A model generated the notes under the pieces. The model searched no databases. It worked only from the letters and a program-made list of their open reading frames with translations, and was not told the origin of the DNA. The translations under genes were made by a program, and so were the position numbers. This document shows, in pieces, positions 45,260 through 60,679 of a DNA stretch of 64,000 nt. The DNA lies in assembly GCA_949361645.1 (NCBI GenBank), contig OX442430.1:6942081-7006080 (forward strand). The letters run 5' to 3'. Source of the stretch: Spongilla lacustris (lineage: Eukaryota; Porifera; Demospongiae; Spongillida; Spongillidae). Numbering within the stretch: the stretch's first letter is position 1; each line of letters starts with the position of its first letter.

Positions 45260-45447
45260 ATCGCTTCTCGGCCTCTTGGCTAAGATCAAGTAGAAATAAC
45301 TGTTCTTACGAGTGTAATATCTCGTATGAGGACAATGTCCTCACGATATTACATCAATTTTTGAAACCTGGGACTCGGAGTGAAGCTTGCTTCGCCGGCC
45401 CCGCGGGTTGCCCCAGTATTGCACTACCTCTGGGTGCGGCCCATCCC
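45260..45447 (+). ncRNA. U2 snRNA-like gene with altered branch-site recognition region
   Basis: The 5' end ATCGCTTCTCGGCCTCTTGG plus CTAAGATCAAG is textbook U2. SL IIa (TACGAG...CTCGTA), SL IIb (GAGGAC-AAT-GTCCTC), the IIc complementarity (GTAATAT/ATATTAC), an Sm-like site (AATTTTTGA at 45356-45364), SL III (GAAGCTTGCTTC) and SL IV (CCCAGTATTGCACTACCTCT then GGG) are all present. The invariant GUAGUA that pairs with the intron branch site is missing: between AAGATCAAG and CTGTTCTTA there is TAGAAATAA instead of TGTAGTAT. U2 is the branch-site-selecting RNA of the spliceosome. This copy is either a pseudogene with preserved folds or a variant U2. A 3'-box-like element follows. Confidence 0.85.
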
Positions 45448-45465
45448 CTTTGGGGGAACACAAAT

Positions 45466-46056: not shown

Positions 46057-46928
46057 CAGTGTTGCCGCGGTCCACTACTTTTCAGTGGATCGTGGACCGC
46101 GGTCAAACCTAAGTAGCCAGACCGTGACCGGACCGCGACCGTGCACAAATTAAACAATCCAGGACCGTGACCGTCGGTCGGACCGACGGTCGGACCGCGG
46201 TCCACAATGCTGATAATATAAATCCAAGAAAGGCAATGCAAATGCAACAATGACAACACATACATACACACACACATTATGAAACATACAACAAAGTACA
46301 AAGTCTGAAAAAACAATGCTATTTCCAGAAGTATTGATTGTGGCGTAAAAGAATGGTCTTGTGAAGTCTTTCTGGAAGCAGGCGCCATCTTTTTTGTCGG
46401 TTATGTTTTTGGCCGTGGAAAAAACCCTTTCAGAGGAAGCTGATGAAGCGGGGATGGCCAAGTATTTTTTTGCAAGCACCGATTATAATGGGATAATTAG
46501 TAGCATTAACAGACCACCAGTTAAGTGGGTCCAATCCTGTCAGATGATCTGACTCTGGCACTGCCAGATACCTACATGTACACATTATCATAATACATAA
46601 CATTTCAACATTCATTTTTGAAGTACCTTTTTAGTTCTTCATCAACACGATCATCAACAGTGTTAGAAAATAGCTGTGTTGGTGTTGGTAAAGCAAAACT
46701 GAAAAGTAACTTTGCTTCCTCAAACACACTTGACAGCTTTGTCTTCTTTTGTCCATGCGTATTTAGGCGTGGGTACGAGGGGGACCGCGGTCAGACCGTC
46801 GGTCCAGTACTGCTTGGACCGTGACCGTCCGTGAATGAAAATAATAAGGACCGAGGCTCGCGGTCCAGCTAAAAATGGCGAGGACTGCGGTCCGGACCGT
46901 CGGTCCCGGTCGGACCGCGGCAACACTG
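46057..46928 (-). mobile_element. 872-bp hAT element nested in the piggyBac transposase
   Basis: The ends are CAGTGTTGCCGCGGTCC and GGACCGCGGCAACACTG, with an 8-bp duplication GAGTAGGC (46049-46056 and 46929-46936). The subterminal regions are crowded with GGTCCG/CGGACC words (for example GACCGTCGGTCGGACCGACG near 46167). The interior keeps the end of a hAT transposase. It is an internally deleted derivative. Confidence 0.92.
46310..46479 (-). pseudogene. hAT transposase C-terminal dimerisation segment
   Basis: It reads KYLAIPASSASSERVFSTAK, the hallmark hAT-C motif, followed by NITDKKDGACFQKDF. The rest of the transposase (RNase H-like core) is missing from this copy. Confidence 0.8.
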
Positions 46929-48960
46929 GAGTAGGCTCTGGAGCACCACCTTTGCTGTTTGTCAGCAGCATTATGACCAGCCTTTCAATGAAGTTTCTGT
47001 GGGATGGAACTTGTACATGCCGATTGAAGTGACAGAATTTCTTGAACGTATCCACCTCAATCATCCCCAAAATGGTACACATCAACCGAAACCACCAGTT
47101 GCTGGTTTCAATAGCATTTTCCATTCCTAGACCATCTTGCCGTAAGTGGTTGTGCACATCAATGGCACATGCTGCTTCAAAATAAGACTTTATCATCTGT
47201 GTGCGAGGAACAGTGTGGGTAATGGTTTCGGATTCTCCAGTAGTTTCATTGAGGTGCCACCGCTTCCTTGCATGGTCATCAACAGACATGCTGTGATTCC
47301 ACGTGCTGATGATGATCTTCCTTGGTGCTCCTTCTGAACCCGGTTCATTCCAGACATGGCCATAAATATACTTACTAACTCCGTGTACTTTCTTCTCAGT
47401 ACGAATGGTCACTGTGTCACCACGCTTGGCTTGTGCACTAAAGGCCATCTCTGGCAGAATTTCCTAGGAAACTCCTTATGAGCTGTTTTGAGCAGACCAG
47501 AAAAGTATGTGGAATGTTCCAGCAGAGCATTACAGGTGGTTACAGATGCAAATGCACTGTCTCCATGAATAACATGTCCACGACCATGCAAAAATTCTGT
47601 CATCCTGAGATTAAGAGCAACTGATTTGGGTACCTGTCACGATATCTTTTGCTTGCCATAGCCTCCTTTCCCTCTTGTATCTTCAGAAACAGCATAATGC
47701 CAGTCTGTGCATCTGCCACATTCTTGTACTCCACCCCAATGCCCTGTGGCTTTCGGATTATTTTGGAAAGGTGGGGCACACCTTCTGGAGTATTCTCAAA
47801 AAATGGAATCCATTTATCCATTGATTCGTCAATAACCACTTCAGTTCCCTGATCCACAAACTTCCTCCGTAGGGCATTGAATGCATCGACTAGTGGCTGG
47901 ATGTATTTCCACTTGTTGTCAGAATCACCAGGGGGCCAGATCTTCAGGAATCTCTCCCAATCAATGAAGCGGTCACGAGCTAAGCCAAAGCGTTCTCTCA
48001 TTCTAAAAGGAGGAACAAAGCCATCATCCCTAGTTCACCAGAGGTCCTTGATTCTTCCAATTGGATGCAGTGTTCTTGCATACAACACACCCAAACACAT
48101 CCAATGCTCGTGTTCTGAAAATGCAGCAACATTGTCAGGCAGTGAGTTATTTGTCCATTGAAGACAATCCATCCAAAAGTCAATAGGCATCATGTGGTTG
48201 AAACATGCCTCATCATGCCAGACTGTCTCTGCCAATGCTCCCTGCCACCTGATTCTTGTTTTAGCATAACGCCAGCCATCCTTGGCACGCTGGCATTCCG
48301 TCACACCCCCTTGTAATGTTTCCCATTGTTGACCATGTGCTAAAAGTGGATCGGATGGGCCTGTCTCATGGCTACTTGCTGGAAGAGCATCAGGAGGGTT
48401 TAGTTCTTCGTCTAGGTCCTCACACACTGGCTGAGCATCATGATTGAAGCTCTCGTCCTCTTCAATATCTTCAGGCCGGCTATTTTGTGGCTCAGTTGAT
48501 GGCTCTGGAGTGGGATCCAATGCTACTATGAGTTCTTTAGCATTCCTCCAAAATGTTGCACCATGTTCAGTTTCATAAAACTGGCCCCCAATGTTCCATC
48601 TAACTCTCCTCGTGTTTTTTCGAGGCTTAGCTATCACCTCCCCTTCGACATCTGCGTTTTTCCATCCCGTACCGAACGTACGCATCAACGCATCTTTTAC
48701 GCGAAACTTGGCACCTTTGGCGTGAACTTTAGCGCCTAGCTCCGGTAAACATGCATTAACACGCCCAGTGCTCGGTGGAACTGATAGCCTACTTCCAGAC
48801 ACAACATTAGCCGCCATTTCGAAGAGGGTACAATAAATAACCACAAGACCTTTGACCCTCAAAAAACGCTAGGTTTACCTAGCGAACGCTAGGTAAACCT
48901 AGCGTTCGGCACCTATTCATTAAAACGATAATGCACCATACGTGTCGAACCTTTTTAGTG

Positions 48961-48995: not shown

Positions 48996-49004
48996 TGAAG
49001 GAAC

Positions 49005-50828
49005 GTGTGATATACATCTATTAACTGAAATGTGTAATCAGAATACTTTATACTCCAAGCACCAGACAATGAAATATAAACACAAATCACTAATCAAGTT
49101 CGTTAAGAAAAGTTTGTAACTTCACCCTGTATAAGTTCTTTGGAGGCTGTTCCTTAAAAAAAATGTACTCTCAACAATAAAAAAGATTACTACAATAATC
49201 TGTAAATTTTATGTTAAATACATAAAAGCTGGCTAATAATGTGGGGACTGCTTCTTCAAGTTTCATTTGAAAATGCAAACTGCCATCAGCCATCAAAGAT
49301 GCACTCTTTTTCGCCTTATTGTAGACAATCATGGGCTGAGTGTAACCATGTGCCTCCACATCAGCTGAACTTTCTGTTGTCTGCAAATGTAATGAGATGA
49401 TTACAACATCATTGGTACACCTGTGGAAATGATGTACCATCATTGTATAAAGCACACGGCTGTGGTCTGCCTTTGACCGTGTGTCTGGTAAAAGGTAGTA
49501 CAGGAGTATTAGGGCTTGAATGCTGATTTCTGAAAATAACGTTAATCAAATATTAATATTGTAATATACAAATGCACCTTCACCAGGATATGATTTTCCT
49601 TCTAATTCAGATAACTCAAATTTGACACATAAATTCAAATCCTGCTCACTTTCAGCAAGTGCGATTATTTTAGGTACCGCCTCCTTCCATCTTTTTACCA
49701 TGTGCAAGCAACTGTCCTTGATCCAATCCAGTTCCCTAAGAAACTGCATACAATGAACAGTGTTGACATGTAAATACCATTGTAGATATAAAGAAAATAA
49801 TGTAAACTTACACCTTCACTGCTTTGCAAAGCTGGGAATTGCTGGAGGAGTGCCACTGCATCTTCTGGATTATTCATCACATCGTAACGTCTAATGTTGA
49901 ACGTCTGCTTCATTAAAGTGGCGGTTCTGGCTGCAGTGTCCTTTCCAGACGATGTCGTTATCTTCTAAAAGATATTGACCTGTTCACTGTAGACTTTACG
50001 CTTGTCTGGAGTAAGGCATTTAAAGTCCCTGCTGAAGGGAAATCTGCTGGATGGTTTTAAACTCTTTCCAGTCCCCATGTGTCGGCATCCAGATTTTCCA
50101 TCTCTGTAGCCCAGCCTCTGACAGATCAATCTTTTGAACAATTTCTAAAATCCCCAAAAGTTGATACATAACTGGCATACTCACCAATTTCCCGTCCCCT
50201 GGCAGAAGCTGGACGTCTTTAGGCGGTTCCTCTTCCCCAGGTTGACCTTTGTTCTTCAGATTATTTTCCCTGGGTCAACCTGGCAGTAGATTCTTCCAAA
50301 TGGTGTAGCTGCCCTTTGTAGCCTCAGTGCAGCAGAGCTGTCGAAACAGTCGGGCGTACCTACTGCCAACAGACAGTTTTTTCAAAACTGGATCGTTGGC
50401 TGTATCCCAGCCTCCCAGAGGGCCCACGATGAAGGCATCCACCTCTACCTTGCGGTACCCCTTGGACCTGAGCAGTGCCTTTGGGTTGTGGTACTTCTGC
50501 TCTTTCGCTTCTCGGGCTGGTGGGAAAGCCTCTGTGCCCTCAAAGATCATTGTGACGTCCACAATGTTAGGCCTCTTTAGTGGCCTCGTTGAGGATGGCC
50601 AAGTCCGGCTACAGCCCCTGCATGTCCCCTGGGATGAGCTGCTCCTTGTACTACTGCCCCTTCCATGCTGGCACTGCGTTGATCAATGGAGCCAGGATCT
50701 TCTTGTGGCGATGGCACAGCAGGCCCACGTGGTTGGGACAGTGGTTGAAGCACATGAGCGAGGTTCTCTTGTTCCTCATGGCACCTTGGGCAGCTGAGGT
50801 CATGGATCCGTTCACCAGCTCTGCTCCT
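49005..50828. repeat. Segmental duplication, copy 1
   Basis: It matches 53000-54763 in the same orientation with high identity. Each copy contains the same unrecognised minus-strand exons plus the same LINE 3' end. The left breakpoints read GGAACGTG(TG)AT in both copies. Confidence 0.85.
49171..49970 (-). pseudogene. Unrecognised host-gene exons, copy 1
   Basis: Minus-strand exon-like pieces: MKQTFNIRRYDVMNNPEDAV and ALLQQFPALQSSEG (49913-49815, donor GTAAGT); FLRELDWIKDSCLHMVKRWK, then LCVKFELSELEGK (about 49745-49580); and VEAHGYTQPMIVYNKAKKSA, then SLHFQMKLEEAVPTLLASFY (about 49375-49210). The FPAL and TLLASFYVFN style recalls the large family of SAMD3-like and uncharacterised proteins amplified in many animals, but I cannot name it safely. 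There are introns between the pieces. The LINE 3' end lies just upstream (50275), inside what would be an intron. Confidence 0.4.
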
Positions 50829-51405: not shown

Positions 51406-52430
51406 TTACAGGCAGGGAGAAAGGTGGGGGGAAGCCATGGGTAGATCTACTGGTGGAGTGGGTTGCCCTTCAGCTCCAACGTCTGGATCACGACGATGAC
51501 GATGCGTGCACATTGATTGGTACCATATGGTCTGGGACCCAGAGATGGCAGACACCACGAACAGGAGGCGCATTAATGCCGCATATCTGTGGCCAATGTG
51601 GAGGGATGAGAGGACCCTGCTGTTGCCAGGGTACCAGCTGCCCAGAGAGCCAACTATGAAGGGGAGGATGTTCACTTGAGCATGACGCTGGAGTAGGACC
51701 TGCTTTCGTATTTGGCTATCTTGGCCTTGGCAGTGTCCTCAAGGGCAGTTGGGGAACCTTCAAATGAGCAGCAGACCTCCACAATCATGATGGAGGACTC
51801 ATCCGGGGAGATGATTGTTAAGTCCGAGCGGTTGTTGCTTGTTGTGTTGGGCAGCGGCTGCTCCTTGAATTTGTCCCCAAGGGAGGGTGGTGTCGCTCTG
51901 ATGAGGCGCTCGAGCACTGCGTTATGCCTGTCTCTAATAAGGTTGAGGTTGTGGTGGCAATGGTTCATGATGTGAGCGAGGGTCTCAGGGTGTTGGTGAC
52001 AGAGGAGGCAGCGGGTATCTGTGAGGTGAGTGCCGCATCGCGCTTGAACGGTCCTGGTGGGCATAAGGTTGAGACGTGCTCTCAGTATGAAGCGGTACTG
52101 TGGGAAGGTCAAATATGCATCCGAGTATGTAAAGTAGTTGGAGGTGTCCGAGAGGCATGTAGAGTAGCTGCCACTCCCTCATCATCCCCAGGTTTTGGTG
52201 GCAGTGATTGATGATGTGGGCCAGTGTTTCAGGCACCCTTCCACATTTTTGGCATGTGGTGCTGGGGACCACCTTCCCCGACAACGTGCCTGGCCAGTGC
52301 GGACTGGCAGCAGATTCATCCTTGCCCTATGAATGAATCGGTATTGAGGGAAGGAAAGAAACGCTCCAGTGTACATAAAGAATATTGAATCTGGGTGGAG
52401 GGATACGGAGTCATAGCAATATGTATCCAC
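51406..52430 (-). mobile_element. RLE-type LINE, 3' fragment (family II)
   Basis: Minus strand: FMYTGAFLSFPQYRFIHRAR, LNLMPTRTVQARCGTHLTDT, the CCHC finger CLLCHQHPETLAHIMNHCHH, RSDLTIISPDESSIMIVEVC (the endonuclease catalytic region), FEGSPTALEDTAKAKIAKYE, and LPFIVGSLGSWYPGNSRVL. Two partly overlapping copies or a frame-broken tandem of the finger region are present near 52100-52300. About 565 bp (51850-52414) match 57477-58042. Confidence 0.75.
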
Positions 52431-52999: not shown

Positions 53000-54763
53000 A
53001 AGGAACGTGATCTACAACTATTAACTGAAATGTGTAATCAGAATACTTTATACCTCTATATACTCCAAGCACCAGACAATGAAATATAAACACAAATCAC
53101 TAATCAAGTTCGTTAAGAAAAGTTTGTAACTTCACCCTGTATAGGTTCTTTGGAGGCTGTTCCTTAAAAAAATGTACTCTAAACAATAAAAAAGATTACT
53201 ACAATAATCTGTCATTTGAAAATGCAAACTGCCATCAGCCATCAAAGATGCACTCTTTTTCGCCTTATTGTAGACAGTCATGGGCTGAGTGTAGCCATGT
53301 GCCTCCACATCATCTGGACTTTCTGTTGTCTGCAAATGTAATGAGATGATTACAACATCATTGTACACCTGTGGAAATGATGTACCATCATTGTATAAGG
53401 CACATGGCTGTGGTCTGCCTTTTAACCGTGTGCCTGGTAAAAGGTAGTACAGGAGTATTAGGGCTTGAATACTGATTTCTGAAAATAACGTTAATCAAAT
53501 ATTAATATTGTAATATACAAATACACCCTCACCAGGATCTGATTTTCCTTCTAATTCAGATAACTCAAATTTGACACTCCCTTTCAGTAAGTGCGATTTT
53601 TTTAGGTACCACCTCATTCCATCATTTTACCATGTGCAAGCAGCTGTCCTTGATCCAATCCAGTTCCCTAAGAAACTGCATACAATGAACAGTGTTGACA
53701 TGTAAATACCATTGGAGATAGAATGAAAATGATATAAACTTACACCTTCACTGCTTCGCAAAGCTGGGAATTGCTGGAGGAGTGCCACTGCATCTTCTGG
53801 ATTATTCATCACATCCTAACGTCTAATGTTGAACGTCTGCCTCATTAAAGGGACGGTTCTGGCTGCAGTGTTCTTTCCAGACGATGTCGTTATCTTCTTA
53901 AAGGTATTGACCTGTTTACTGTAGACTTTACGCTCGTCTGCAGTTGGACATTTAAAGTCCCTGCTGAAGAGAAATCTGCTGGATGGTTTTAAACTCTTTC
54001 CAGTCCCCGTGTGTTGGCATCCAGATTTTCCATCTCTGTAGCCCCGCCTCTGACAGATCAATCTTTTGAACAATTTTTAAAATCCCAAAAAGTTGATACA
54101 TAACTGGCATGCATATACTAGACTCACCAATTCCCGTCCCCTGGCAGAAGCTGGATGTCTTTAGGCGGTTCCTCTTCCCCAGGTTGACCTTTGTTCTTCA
54201 GGTTATTTTCCCAGGGTCAACCTGGCAGTAGATTCTTCCAGATGGCGTAGCTGCCCTTTGTAGCCTCAGTGCAGCAAAGCTGTCGAAACAGTCGGGCGTA
54301 CCTTCTGCCAACAGAAAGTTTTTTCAAAACTGGATCGTTGGCTGTATACCAGCTTCCCAAAGGGCCCACGATGAAGGCATCCACCTCTACCTTGTGGTAC
54401 CCCTTGGACCTGAGCAGTGCCTTCGGGTAGTGGTATATCTGCTCTTTTGCTTCTCAGGCTGGTGGGAAAGACTCTGTGCCCTCAAAGGGCATTGTGACGT
54501 CCACAATGTTAGGCCTCTTTAGTAGCCTCGTTGAGGATGGCTAGATCAGGCTTCAGGCCCTGCATGTCCCTAGAGATAACCTGCTTGTTGTACTACTGCC
54601 TCTTCCATGCTGGCACTGCGTTGACCAATGGAGCCAGGATCTTCTTGTGGCGATGGTGCTACAGGCCCACGTGGTTGGGACAGTGGTTGAGGGTCTCTTG
54701 TTCCTCATGGCACCTTGGGCAGCTGAGGTCGGGGATCCGTTCGCCGGCTCTGTTCCTCATGGG
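53000..54763. repeat. Segmental duplication, copy 2
   Basis: Partner of 49005-50828. It has lost short segments relative to copy 1 (for example about 40 bp near 53215 and about 30 bp near 53578), which makes its exons more broken. Confidence 0.85.
53132..54073 (-). pseudogene. Unrecognised host-gene exons, copy 2 (more decayed)
   Basis: The same pieces as at 49171-49970: RQTFNIRR then stop, NNPEDAVALLQQFPALRSSE, LDWIKDSCLHMVK with a stop, and VEAHGYTQPMTVYNKAKKSA. The upstream exon FLFSRDFKCPTADERKVYSK and QVNTFKKITTSSGK is clearer here (54000-53880). In-frame stops and deletions indicate a pseudogene. Confidence 0.4.
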
Positions 54764-57038: not shown

Positions 57039-58240
57039 TTAAATTGTTACAGTATGCCTAATGTGAATGTTCATAGAAGAAGCCACACATAGGCGTCGCA
57101 TCAGGAAGGAGTAGTACCTCTCGATGTGCAGGTGACGGAGGACTGTATTGATGGGCGGGTACCAACTGCCGAGGCTGCCTATTATGAATGGGAGCACCTC
57201 AACCTTGTCATACCTTGCCAGGAGGGCTTGCTGAAGGGGCAGGTATTTATCCACCTTCATGCTGGCTGCCATTTGTAAGGCATCGGGGCTTCCCTCAAAT
57301 GGGATGCACACATCCACCAGAATCACTGTGTTCCCTTCTTATATTTCCAGACCCAGATGCAGAATTTCAATCACTACCATGTGTGCAAAGCCCACGGGCT
57401 GCTCTGGATCTAGACAGTGGGTTAACTCCCATCCGGGGACACGATGGTGAGGTCCGGCCTGTTAGCTCCTGAGGTGTTGGGCAGCGGCTGCTCCTTGAAT
57501 TTGTCCCCAAGGGAGGGTGGTATCGCTCTGATGAGGTGCTCGAGCACTGCGTTATGCCTTTCTCTAATAAGGTTGAGGTTGTGGTGGCAATGGTTCACGA
57601 TGTGAGCAAGGGTCTCAGGGTGTTGATGACAGAGGCGGCAGTGGGTATCTGTGAGGTGGGTGCCACATCGCGCTTGAACGGTCCTGGTAGGCATAAGGTT
57701 GAGACGTGCTCTCAGTATGAAGCGGTACTGTGGGAAGGTCAAATATGCACCCGAGTATGTAAAGTAGTTGGAGGTGTCCGAGAGGCATGTAGAGTAGCTG
57801 CCACTCCCTCATCATCCCCAGGTTTTGGTGGCAGTGATTGATGATGTGGGCCAGTGTTTCAGGCACCCTTCCACAGATTTGGCATGTGGTGCTGGGGACC
57901 ACCTTCCCCGACAACGTGCCTGGACAGTGCGGACTGGCAGCAGATTCAACCATGCCCTATGAATGAATGGGTATTGAGGGAAAGAAAGAAACGCTCCAGT
58001 GTACATAAAGAATGTTGAATCTGGGTGGAGGGATACAGAGTCAAACGCCCTCCCCTGATCGGCAGACGTCTTCAGTTCCCCCAGATGGCGAGTATGAATG
58101 GCTTCCCGAAGCACTTGGAATACATCCTTGCGCTTGTGCCGTGCAAGGTGATGGCGCTGTGTGTGGAGGGTGGCAGAGTCCTGTGTCAACTCTATGGTGG
58201 CACCTTTGATGGCTGGACTGGCCCTTGCCGCAGTCCACAA
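57039..58240 (-). mobile_element. RLE-type LINE, 3' fragment (family II, second copy)
   Basis: It reads HTRHLGELKTSADQGRAFDS, LHPDSTFFMYTGAFLSFPQY, the CCHC finger CRLCHQHPETLAHIVNHCHH, RPDLTIVSPDGS, MILVDVCIPFEGSPDALQMA (endonuclease), LPFIIGSLGSWYPPINTVL and SFLMRRLCVASS. Most of the C-terminal half of a single LINE can be followed with frameshifts and a short insertion near 57340-57430. Confidence 0.72.
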
Positions 58241-58690: not shown

Positions 58691-59200
58691 GGGGGAAAAA
58701 ACCCTTCTGCAGGAGGGAAAAAGACCTTTCGCAGCACCTTACTCGACAAGGCTGGTGGGTAGTAACGATCTTGATCGATCAGGTCTCCGCAAAATCGTTG
58801 TATAGGAGGTGTGACCAGGCTTGTGGAGGGGGTCCTCTTCCACGGTGGAAAGGGGCCTCCCGATTGTGTACTTTTTAATAATTACGTTCAGTCTCCTTAT
58901 TCTGTTTTTGACGAATTTTCAGACACCCATTTCTCTCTGCCATTCACGTGTCAATACTGCATGCGAATAATGGCTGTGATGTCCAATTGTTATACATTAA
59001 TGCTCTACTTTATCTGGGTGTGTTCTTGACCAAGCTGCCATCAGTGCGTATTCAGCTGCAGTGTTCTTGGCTTCCTCCACAGGGGGGAGAGGGGAAAGCA
59101 TCCTTTAGGTCAAGCCAGACAAGGTTCGCTGTTTCACCTTGTATCTCACTGCATGTGGCACAAGTATACAAACAGGAGGACTTTGTATAATGATAGTCCA
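58691..59200. other. Possible LINE 5' UTR and unassigned sequence
   Basis: No ORF recognised. 58680-58740 has runs of GGGGGAAAAAACCC type. 59130-59290 is repeated at 60265-60420. Confidence 0.3.
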
Positions 59201-59207
59201 TAGTCTG

Positions 59208-59480
59208 CTAGTTAAGGAGACCTTTGTTATTAGGCAGCCTTCGAATGGAAGAAATCCTTTTTGGCTCCAGCTGGGCAGCACTCTCGGCCAGTGGCCGGTA
59301 CAAGAGAATATACACTAGGCCCAATTCCACAAAGGTTTTGGAGCGTGATGGGCTTCCAGTTATCCAGATTGTTTGGTGTGGATCAGGATCATGTTTGATT
59401 GTTTCCACAAGGGTGGTATCCTGCCGTTGATGCGGCAGGTTTCGGAGGTCTGGGGGGAGGTAGCCTATGGAGGGAATGGA
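59208..59480 (-). mobile_element. Degenerate LINE reverse-transcriptase fragment
   Basis: In one minus frame CRINGRIPPLWKQSNMILIH (about 59440-59380) is the RT motif that usually reads IPxxWKxSxxxLIHK. Frames shift immediately afterwards. Confidence 0.45.
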
Positions 59481-59840
59481 GGAGGGTTTAATTGAAAAAA
59501 AAGGCCTGCAGTGAGTACAACACTGAACCCTCGCGGGTTGGCACTCTCCCATCATATAGATGGGGAAAAGATACTTGCAAGATACAACAGAATTGTTAGC
59601 CAGGAAGAATGAAGCGTTAATATTTACCATGTATATGTGGTCTTTATGACAGCTATTGTCTGGGAATTATACGTTTTTACCAGTGCCTTAGGCATAAATA
59701 AAGGATATTTCCCTGCTTCTATGCCTGATTGAAGCCGGTACGGATTCTCATGTGTAATTGTTTAAAATTTAGACCCACAAGGACTTTACATTACTATTAG
59801 CTTAAGTCTGATCTTTTATTGTTTTGAGTTCCCCCAAAGG

Positions 59841-59881
59841 GGATGGGCCGCACCCAGAGGTAGTGCAATACTGGGACAACC
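59841..59881 (-). pseudogene. 3' half of a second U2 snRNA gene
   Basis: The minus strand reads GGTTGTCCCAGTATTGCACT, ACCTCTGGGTGCGGCCCATC and C, identical to 45406-45446 except for one base. The match continues through the downstream flank (to about 59755), including the 3'-box-like element. Upstream it stops abruptly at the 3' end of a LINE fragment. Confidence 0.85.
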
Positions 59882-59882
59882 A

Positions 59883-60274
59883 GTATTGCATGATACAACA
59901 GAATAGTCAAAATAGTGAAGATAGGAGTTCTAGCATCTACAACAGGCCTTCCAGATTGCGTAGCTGCCAGATATTGCAGTTGAGCAGCAAAGTTGGCGAA
60001 AGAGCTTGGCATAGTGCTGGCCTATGGAGAGGGCTCTGAGCACCCTCTCATTATCTGGGTCCCACGATCCCAGGGCTCCAATAACAAAGGCTTCCAGGGT
60101 TATGTCCGATAGGATGGTTGGTCGGAGTCGCTTCCACGCAGAGTATTGGATGCGGTCTGGGCCTGGCGCGGAATTTGCCTTCATCCTCTTGGTGGTTTTA
60201 GATACCTCTTCCGCTAGTTTGGGGGCTTCCATGACGTCTGTGTGGGTGGGGTTGGACAAGGTTTGCTGTTTCAC
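59883..60274 (-). mobile_element. RLE-type LINE 3' end joined to U2 (Utopia-like)
   Basis: A frame from 60274 to the TAG at 59932-59930 fuses an RT start (RMKANSAPGPDRIQYSAWKR) directly to the LINE C-terminus (EAFVIGALGSWDPDNERVL, HYAKLFRQLCCSTAISGSYA), so about 2 kb of RT/finger/endonuclease is deleted. About 48 bp of 3' UTR then runs into the U2 3' half in the same orientation. That is the arrangement left by target-primed insertion into a U2 gene. RLE-type, U2-targeting LINEs are known as Utopia; the match to that lineage is inferred from the target and enzyme type. Confidence 0.75.
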
Positions 60275-60394
60275 CTTGTATCACTGCATGTGGCATAAGT
60301 ATACAAACAGGAGGACTTTTTATAATGATAGTCCATAGTCTGCTAGTAAGGAGACCTTTGTTATTAGACAGCCTTCGAATGGAAGGAATCCTTT

Positions 60395-60679
60395 TTAACT
60401 CCAGCTCAGGATGCTATTCTCTAGGGCCCACGATGAATGTCGTCCGGCTATTATTGCCCCATACAGCTTGTATGCTGTATTTTGCAGGCTGGTAGGTCGC
60501 CAGTTCCTGATTGCAGAGGGATCATCTCCTTTGTGGATCAGGATGGTGGTTGATGTCTTACAGGCAGTCGGGATCTTCTTGTTCTTCCTGCAGGTCTCCA
60601 GAATTTTTGCCTGCATGTAGCAACCGGGGTCAACAGCTCTCCAGGTGGAATAGGTAATACGGTTAGGGCCCCGTGCCAA
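60395..60679 (-). mobile_element. LINE reverse-transcriptase fragment (N-terminal RT motifs)
   Basis: It reads GPNRITYSTWRAVDPGCYMQ, CRKNKKIPTACKTSTTILIH, KGDDPSAIRNWRPTSLQNTA and YKLYGAIIAGR, RT motifs 0-2 of an R2/NeSL-type element. It ends before the catalytic YxDD motif. Confidence 0.7.

Follow-up and report, generated by a model that had tools for sequence, protein, structure and literature searches.

The U2 snRNA genes of this freshwater sponge, Spongilla lacustris, really do house LINEs of the known Utopia kind, which carry a restriction-like endonuclease (RLE). The sponge elements add to the known U2-targeting kind, and the LINE-U2 junction found at about 60 kb in the window (the 64-kb stretch of contig C17 that was analysed) is a secondary product. 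Here it appears to be U2 sequence that entered the LINE, and not the LINE that entered U2. In our preferred reading, which we hold to be quite probable, a piece of about 290 bp from another U2 locus was inserted into the 3' UTR of a decayed, internally deleted Utopia-like RLE element of the type that we call A. What the sequence shows directly is a UTR end that lies beyond the U2 piece, a direct repeat that brackets the piece, the length of the UTR, and the canonical insertion site used by the other copies. The preliminary description of this DNA had proposed a U2-targeting, RLE-type, Utopia-like lineage in an early-branching animal, caught at its target. The lineage and the kind of animal stand; the claim that this particular copy sits at its target is not supported.

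The flagged LINE lies on the minus strand. Its C-terminal frame (GALGSWD...YAKLFRQLCC) occupies 60112-59933 and ends with a stop codon at 59932-59930, in agreement with the preliminary description. This fragment (60112-59930, including the stop) is 54.7% identical to family A and 45% identical to family B, and both the C-terminus and the UTR domain described below are A-type. In tblastn comparisons, the element is internally deleted: a fragment of the RT start (60247-60119, minus strand; family A residues 850-892) directly abuts the C-terminus (60103-59945), and only these two parts of the LINE are retained. A stretch matching U2 (59881-59803) begins 48 nt 3' of the stop in the same orientation. 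It extends from U2 nt 147 to 35 nt beyond the end of U2 and is 92.4% identical to the intact U2 snRNA gene of the window (45260-45449, plus strand; Rfam RF00004, 149.6 bits). The co-oriented order of LINE end, U2 3' end and U2 flank had thus been described correctly, except that the portion of U2, given earlier as its last 41 nt, is about 44 nt (nt 147-190). The surroundings, from about 50.3 to 63.8 kb, are filled with LINE fragments, mostly on the minus strand, with local duplications. A 155-bp direct repeat (60255-60406 and 59118-59272, 93.5%) flanks the whole flagged LINE fragment. A tRNA scan of the window returned 0 genes, and Pfam searches with three window fragments returned 0, 0 and 1 match, the single match being under its cut-off.

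U2 3' ends were counted throughout the genome (248.6 Mb in 51 contigs) by a pattern allowing up to 3 mismatches, more diverged U2 (for example on contig C1) falling outside the count. They were found at 21 places: seven are full-length copies, 11 begin at nt 39, one (decayed) begins at nt 47, one carries an internal deletion, and one, the flagged copy, begins at nt 147. In the copy with the internal deletion, where nt 97-113 are joined to nt 157 on, the best LINE match in the 1.1 kb covered there is at chance level (E 0.92). The cut site had been placed just upstream of U2 stem-loop IV, to be recognised by a junction base that independent copies share. Among the 21 places the nt 147 junction is seen in the flagged copy only, and it is nt 39 that recurs, in 11 of them.

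The site was also approached from its downstream flank, using 80 of 96 loci, the other 16 of which overlap them. Sequence from U2 nt 40 on is present at 35 places, comprising 12 uninterrupted U2 copies, three U2 5' halves that give way to unrelated sequence once nt 59 is passed, and 20 copies that have no 5' half. In 18 of the last 20, a LINE 3' end stands directly before the site (8 A-type and 10 B-type). As to the other two, one ends in the last bases of a B-type element but does not pass the motif test, and in the other the upstream bases are masked. Since these places were selected by the sequence from nt 40, the count says nothing on nt 147. Target-specific LINEs had been said to leave exactly the flagged kind of junction; in this genome the junction that they leave is at U2 nt 39/40. 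All 32 scored matches to the flagged C-terminus (the best 35 candidates were scored) fall on the same four contigs as the 28 U2 matches, namely C1 (16.29-16.43 Mb), C11 (4.25-5.05 Mb), C17 (3.94 and 6.69-7.03 Mb) and C18 (4.12-4.54 Mb), and part of them were traced to U2 junctions. At the site of Utopia and Keno, downstream U2 starts at nt 39, according to the published account (Kojima and Jurka, 2015; PMC4640811). The U2 of this sponge carries one additional base immediately in front of the insertion site, so that nt 39/40 here is the published place within one base. The window itself holds the canonical 3' junction base at 62857-62840 (minus strand), where U2 nt 38-55 directly follow a LINE 3' end. 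It also holds a U2 upstream region with U2 nt 1-37 (58377-58301, minus strand) followed by a 5'-truncated B-type LINE (58246-57069), which probably represents the old 5' junction of an insertion at the canonical site.

The evidence that the U2 piece lies within a LINE 3' UTR comes from what follows it. A covariance model (R1) was built from the 3' ends of seven A-type LINEs, with the flagged copy left out. In five of the seven, the terminal RNA domain directly precedes U2 (at nt 39, or nt 47 in one decayed case); in two (the upstream copy at L042, and L065) no U2 directly follows. R1 matches the minus strand at 59564-59500 with 41.3 bits and an E-value of 5.5e-9, a rough value because the calibration was short. 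The sole better match is a training sequence, the second A-type 3'-terminal domain of the window (62944-62880, minus strand), and the next match has an E-value of 0.75. The domain at 59564-59500 is the conserved end of the interrupted 3' UTR, and the end of the LINE therefore lies beyond the U2 piece. The 48 nt that had been described as a 48-bp 3' UTR are the first part of that UTR. The idea that the nt 147 junction is a plain deletion or fold-back product was dropped because this domain was found. Downstream of the UTR end (from about 59475), a U2 match was sought in the flagged copy and none was found.

A direct repeat of 22 bp brackets the U2-derived segment. Its left copy is at 59907-59886 and its right copy at 59596-59575, both read on the minus strand, and 20 of the 22 bases are equal. 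The segment between them (59885-59593) begins with 4 extra nt, followed by U2 nt 147-190 (59881-59838); the remaining 245 nt or so are U2 3' flank. The 3' flank of the U2 copy at C17:6692 matches the segment at 84.8% over 316 columns, and the homology ends at about 59590-59597, which coincides with the start of the right repeat. With equal base use, and with 17x17 offsets allowed, the probability of such a repeat by chance is about 3.5e-8. An empirical control gives a weaker result than the analytic one: among pairs of 40-mers drawn from the repeat-rich region, 23 of 20000 draws score as well (18/20 in the best 20-mer, pairs less than 60 nt apart being skipped). The stop and the terminal domain lie 430 nt apart, or 119 nt when the segment and one repeat are removed; in four relatives the distance is 130, 153, 206 and 234 nt. 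Taken together, the domain beyond the U2 piece, the bracketing repeat and the UTR length place a U2-derived segment of about 290 bp inside the LINE 3' UTR. These three findings also argue against a copy caught at its target. At its 5' edge the U2 piece carries an 11-nt inverted repeat (fold z -6.1, equalled by 0 of 200 shuffles). In a DNA search with 59990-59750 for an uninterrupted relative of the UTR, that is, an empty site, 0 of 19 other matches enter the LINE part. The direct repeat was also considered as a U2-like RLE site and rejected: its likeness to the U2 target is equalled or bettered by 5018 of 20000 random 20-mers, a chance level that gives an RLE-directed cut no support from sequence.

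In the preferred reading, an A-type Utopia-like LINE, of the kind that inserts just upstream of U2 nt 39/40, would have decayed with an internal deletion. A piece of another U2 locus, from nt 147 to the gene end with about 245 nt of 3' flank, would then have entered its 3' UTR and duplicated about 20 bp of it. The 22-bp repeat would be the target site duplication, and the U2 piece would be the last to have arrived. The route may have been that a LINE transcript continued past the LINE end into the U2 3' half and flank next to it and was reverse transcribed by target priming at the UTR, with 5' truncation leaving the transduced U2 tail alone. Points for this route are the 21-bp duplications made by B-type elements in the same genome, the U2 3'-end content of the segment, its orientation, and the presence between 80-bp direct repeats (63225-62761) of a LINE 3' end that carries 17 nt of U2 as a tail. 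Against this route are the chance-level likeness of the repeat to the U2 target and the 11-nt inverted repeat. Points against the main reading are the 2 mismatches among the 22 bases of the direct repeat, the inverted repeat, which simple insertion does not explain, the weaker empirical control for the direct repeat, the 0 of 19 matches in the search for an empty site, and the lack of a U2 match downstream of the UTR end. On a broader and more doubtful interpretation, Utopia-type machinery might mobilise host U2, in that read-through transcripts would be reverse transcribed off target and LINEs would spread U2 pieces too. This would perhaps cover both the orphan U2 tail at 59885-59593 and the LINE end with a 17-nt U2 tail at 62857-62840.

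The same anatomy could have arisen by another route, in which a U2 fragment was captured while a staggered double-strand break was being repaired, reverse transcription playing no part. Repair capture gives an insert with a duplication of about 20 bp and no poly(A), as seen here. Template switching during repair can leave short inverted repeats, and the 11-nt inverted repeat at one edge is of that kind; the region is, moreover, heavily rearranged. The orientation, the 3'-end content and the duplication length, on the other hand, fit LINE machinery too (21 bp in the B family), and repair capture and LINE machinery are inseparable by sequence alone. We attach a substantial probability, somewhat short of even, to repair capture, and as routes to the inserted segment it and reverse transcription appear about evenly balanced.

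Explanations that assume a different anatomy fare less well. A canonical insertion at nt 39, from which one deletion removed the 3' end of the UTR and U2 nt 39-146, has precedents in that U2 copies are known here with joined interior segments: nt 97-113 joined to nt 157 on at C17:6252387, and nt 73-96 joined to nt 116-129 at 48996-48961 of the window. It is nevertheless unlikely: it predicts no downstream LINE 3' end, and one is present at 59564-59500; nor does it explain the 22-bp repeat at both edges. Two LINE pieces could also have come to lie around a U2 3' end by chance, with no insertion, if the U2/LINE array underwent unequal exchange or gene conversion, and neighbouring duplications are in favour of this (53000-54757 and 48998-50828, 88%; 57430-58043 and 51800-52413, 94%; 60255-60406 and 59118-59272, 93.5%). 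Exchange does not, however, predict a 20/22 direct repeat at both edges, or a near-normal UTR length once the segment is removed, and we judge it an improbable origin. The least probable explanation is a distinct LINE lineage that cuts U2 at nt 146/147, just upstream of stem-loop IV, and that was caught at its target with a 3' UTR of 48 bp. The co-orientation of LINE C-terminus and U2 3' end, with 48 nt from stop to U2, is what such a lineage would leave; but the junction is unique, 1 among 21 U2 3'-end places, and the conserved terminal UTR domain beyond the U2 piece and the direct repeat around it both speak against it.

The LINEs at the canonical site belong to two lineages, A and B. Copies with U2 on both sides hold uninterrupted frames, of 1640 codons in family A (C17:3.93 Mb) and 1540 codons in family B (C17:6.69 Mb). 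Among 12 U2 5' pieces examined, five end at nt 42 and lead into the start of family A and three end at nt 59 and lead into the start of family B; the remaining four are decayed or truncated (nt 37, 38, 40 and 42). Together with the 3' junction at nt 39, these 5' ends give target duplications of about 4 bp for family A and 21 bp for family B. Over the 1350 bp next to U2, L012 is identical to L013, and L014 to L015; the members of each pair are on different contigs. The LINE copies are thus identical while their U2 hosts differ, which suggests recent movement. With Pfam, the 1640-codon frame of family A matches RVT_1 (8e-33) and a Myb-like domain (4e-6), and C2H2 only below the curated cut-off. 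The elements also contain what we take to be a zinc knuckle and a PD-(D/E)XK-like block, both read by eye.

For a tree of RT sequences, 158 RT-covering proteins or families and three R2 elements (161 rows) were available; a diverse selection of 141 was taken from them, and its first 95 rows entered the tree. The tree was made by a quick method, with long branches flagged, and holds no rows labelled Utopia or NeSL. Families A and B each belong to a set of their own (SH-aLRT 99 and 100, respectively), and these sets contain 3 and 8 of the 11 Ephydatia rows. Both sets lie inside one set of 46 rows (SH-aLRT 96), which includes all 11 Ephydatia rows and 33 unnamed rows, and the three R2 rows are outside it. 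The closest named relatives of the LINE proteins are from Ephydatia muelleri, at least seven of them from one scaffold of 14.9 Mb. A 4-coumarate-CoA-ligase-like gene of the window is 84% identical to an E. muelleri protein; the identity is lower with Suberites and Geodia (58% each) and with Dysidea (55%).

The join of U2 nt 73-96 to nt 116-129 (48996-48961, minus strand) starts at most 2 nt from the end of a 1.85-kb duplication (48998-50828 and 53000-54757). Within 63225-62761 (minus strand), 80-bp direct repeats (97.5%) enclose a 306-bp piece that looks like an off-target insertion with a short U2 tail: it consists of the last LINE residues, an A-type 3' end and 17-18 nt of U2, beginning at nt 38/39. 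At L068 (C17, about 7027400-7027750, minus strand), an A-type LINE 3' end is followed by U2 nt 39-59 and then by an apparent B-type 5' end; near it, U2 nt 56-103 and U2 nt 1-38 face each other head to head. At least two U2 copies are preceded by long simple repeats of a CTCATCCTCACCC-like kind (43-45 kb in the window, and C17 at about 6698000-6699390). Long frames at 46720-48868 (minus strand) resemble, by eye, a piggyBac-type transposase.

No report of U2-targeted RLE LINEs in sponges was found in searches of the open-licence PMC literature. The present elements extend such LINEs to a sponge, in which two lineages share one site and hold uninterrupted frames. The coexistence of several LINE families in about a dozen intact U2 copies thereby becomes testable, now in an early-branching animal. 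A tempting false lead, that of a second cut site in U2, is also corrected, and the case shows what a graveyard of U2 and LINE copies can do to junctions.

The inserted U2 segment invites comparison with the orphan 3' transductions of L1, in which the insert consists solely of LINE-downstream sequence and is flanked by a target site duplication. The U2 insert is similar in being LINE-downstream sequence between putative target site duplications; it differs in having no poly(A), in being a single old example, and in that its RNA intermediate is putative. The RT and linker of the sponge elements are clearly related to those of R2 in structures 8gh6, 9dou, 9nl2 and 9nl3 (best match E 3.2e-64). Unlike R2, which is a LINE of 28S rDNA, those sponge copies whose 3' junction can be read are located in U2, and in the tree the three R2 rows are outside the branch holding A and B. 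Keno is a Tx1-clade LINE found in U2 that has an apurinic-like endonuclease (APE-type), and the sponge elements use the same insertion site, as it is described in the published account (Kojima and Jurka, 2015; PMC4640811). Unlike Keno, the sponge elements end in a zinc knuckle and a PD-(D/E)XK-like block (motifs read by eye), and in the family A frame Pfam finds no apurinic-like endonuclease upstream of the RT at an E-value cut-off of 0.01. The closest parallel is Utopia, a group of NeSL-clade RLE LINEs of U2 snRNA genes, and the following comparison rests on the same account (Kojima and Jurka, 2015; PMC4640811). Like Utopia, the sponge elements encode N-terminal zinc fingers, an RT, a zinc knuckle and a restriction-like endonuclease within a single frame, and insert in U2 with downstream U2 from nt 39/40. 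Also as in Utopia, several families occupy one U2 set, with tandem insertions and a duplication length that depends on the family. The flagged copy departs from the Utopia site, since its U2 starts at nt 147 and not at nt 39. The host differs as well, Porifera being absent from Table 1 of PMC4640811. In the sponge, in comparison with Utopia as described there, two lineages are found at one site in one genome, with duplications of about 4 bp and 21 bp.
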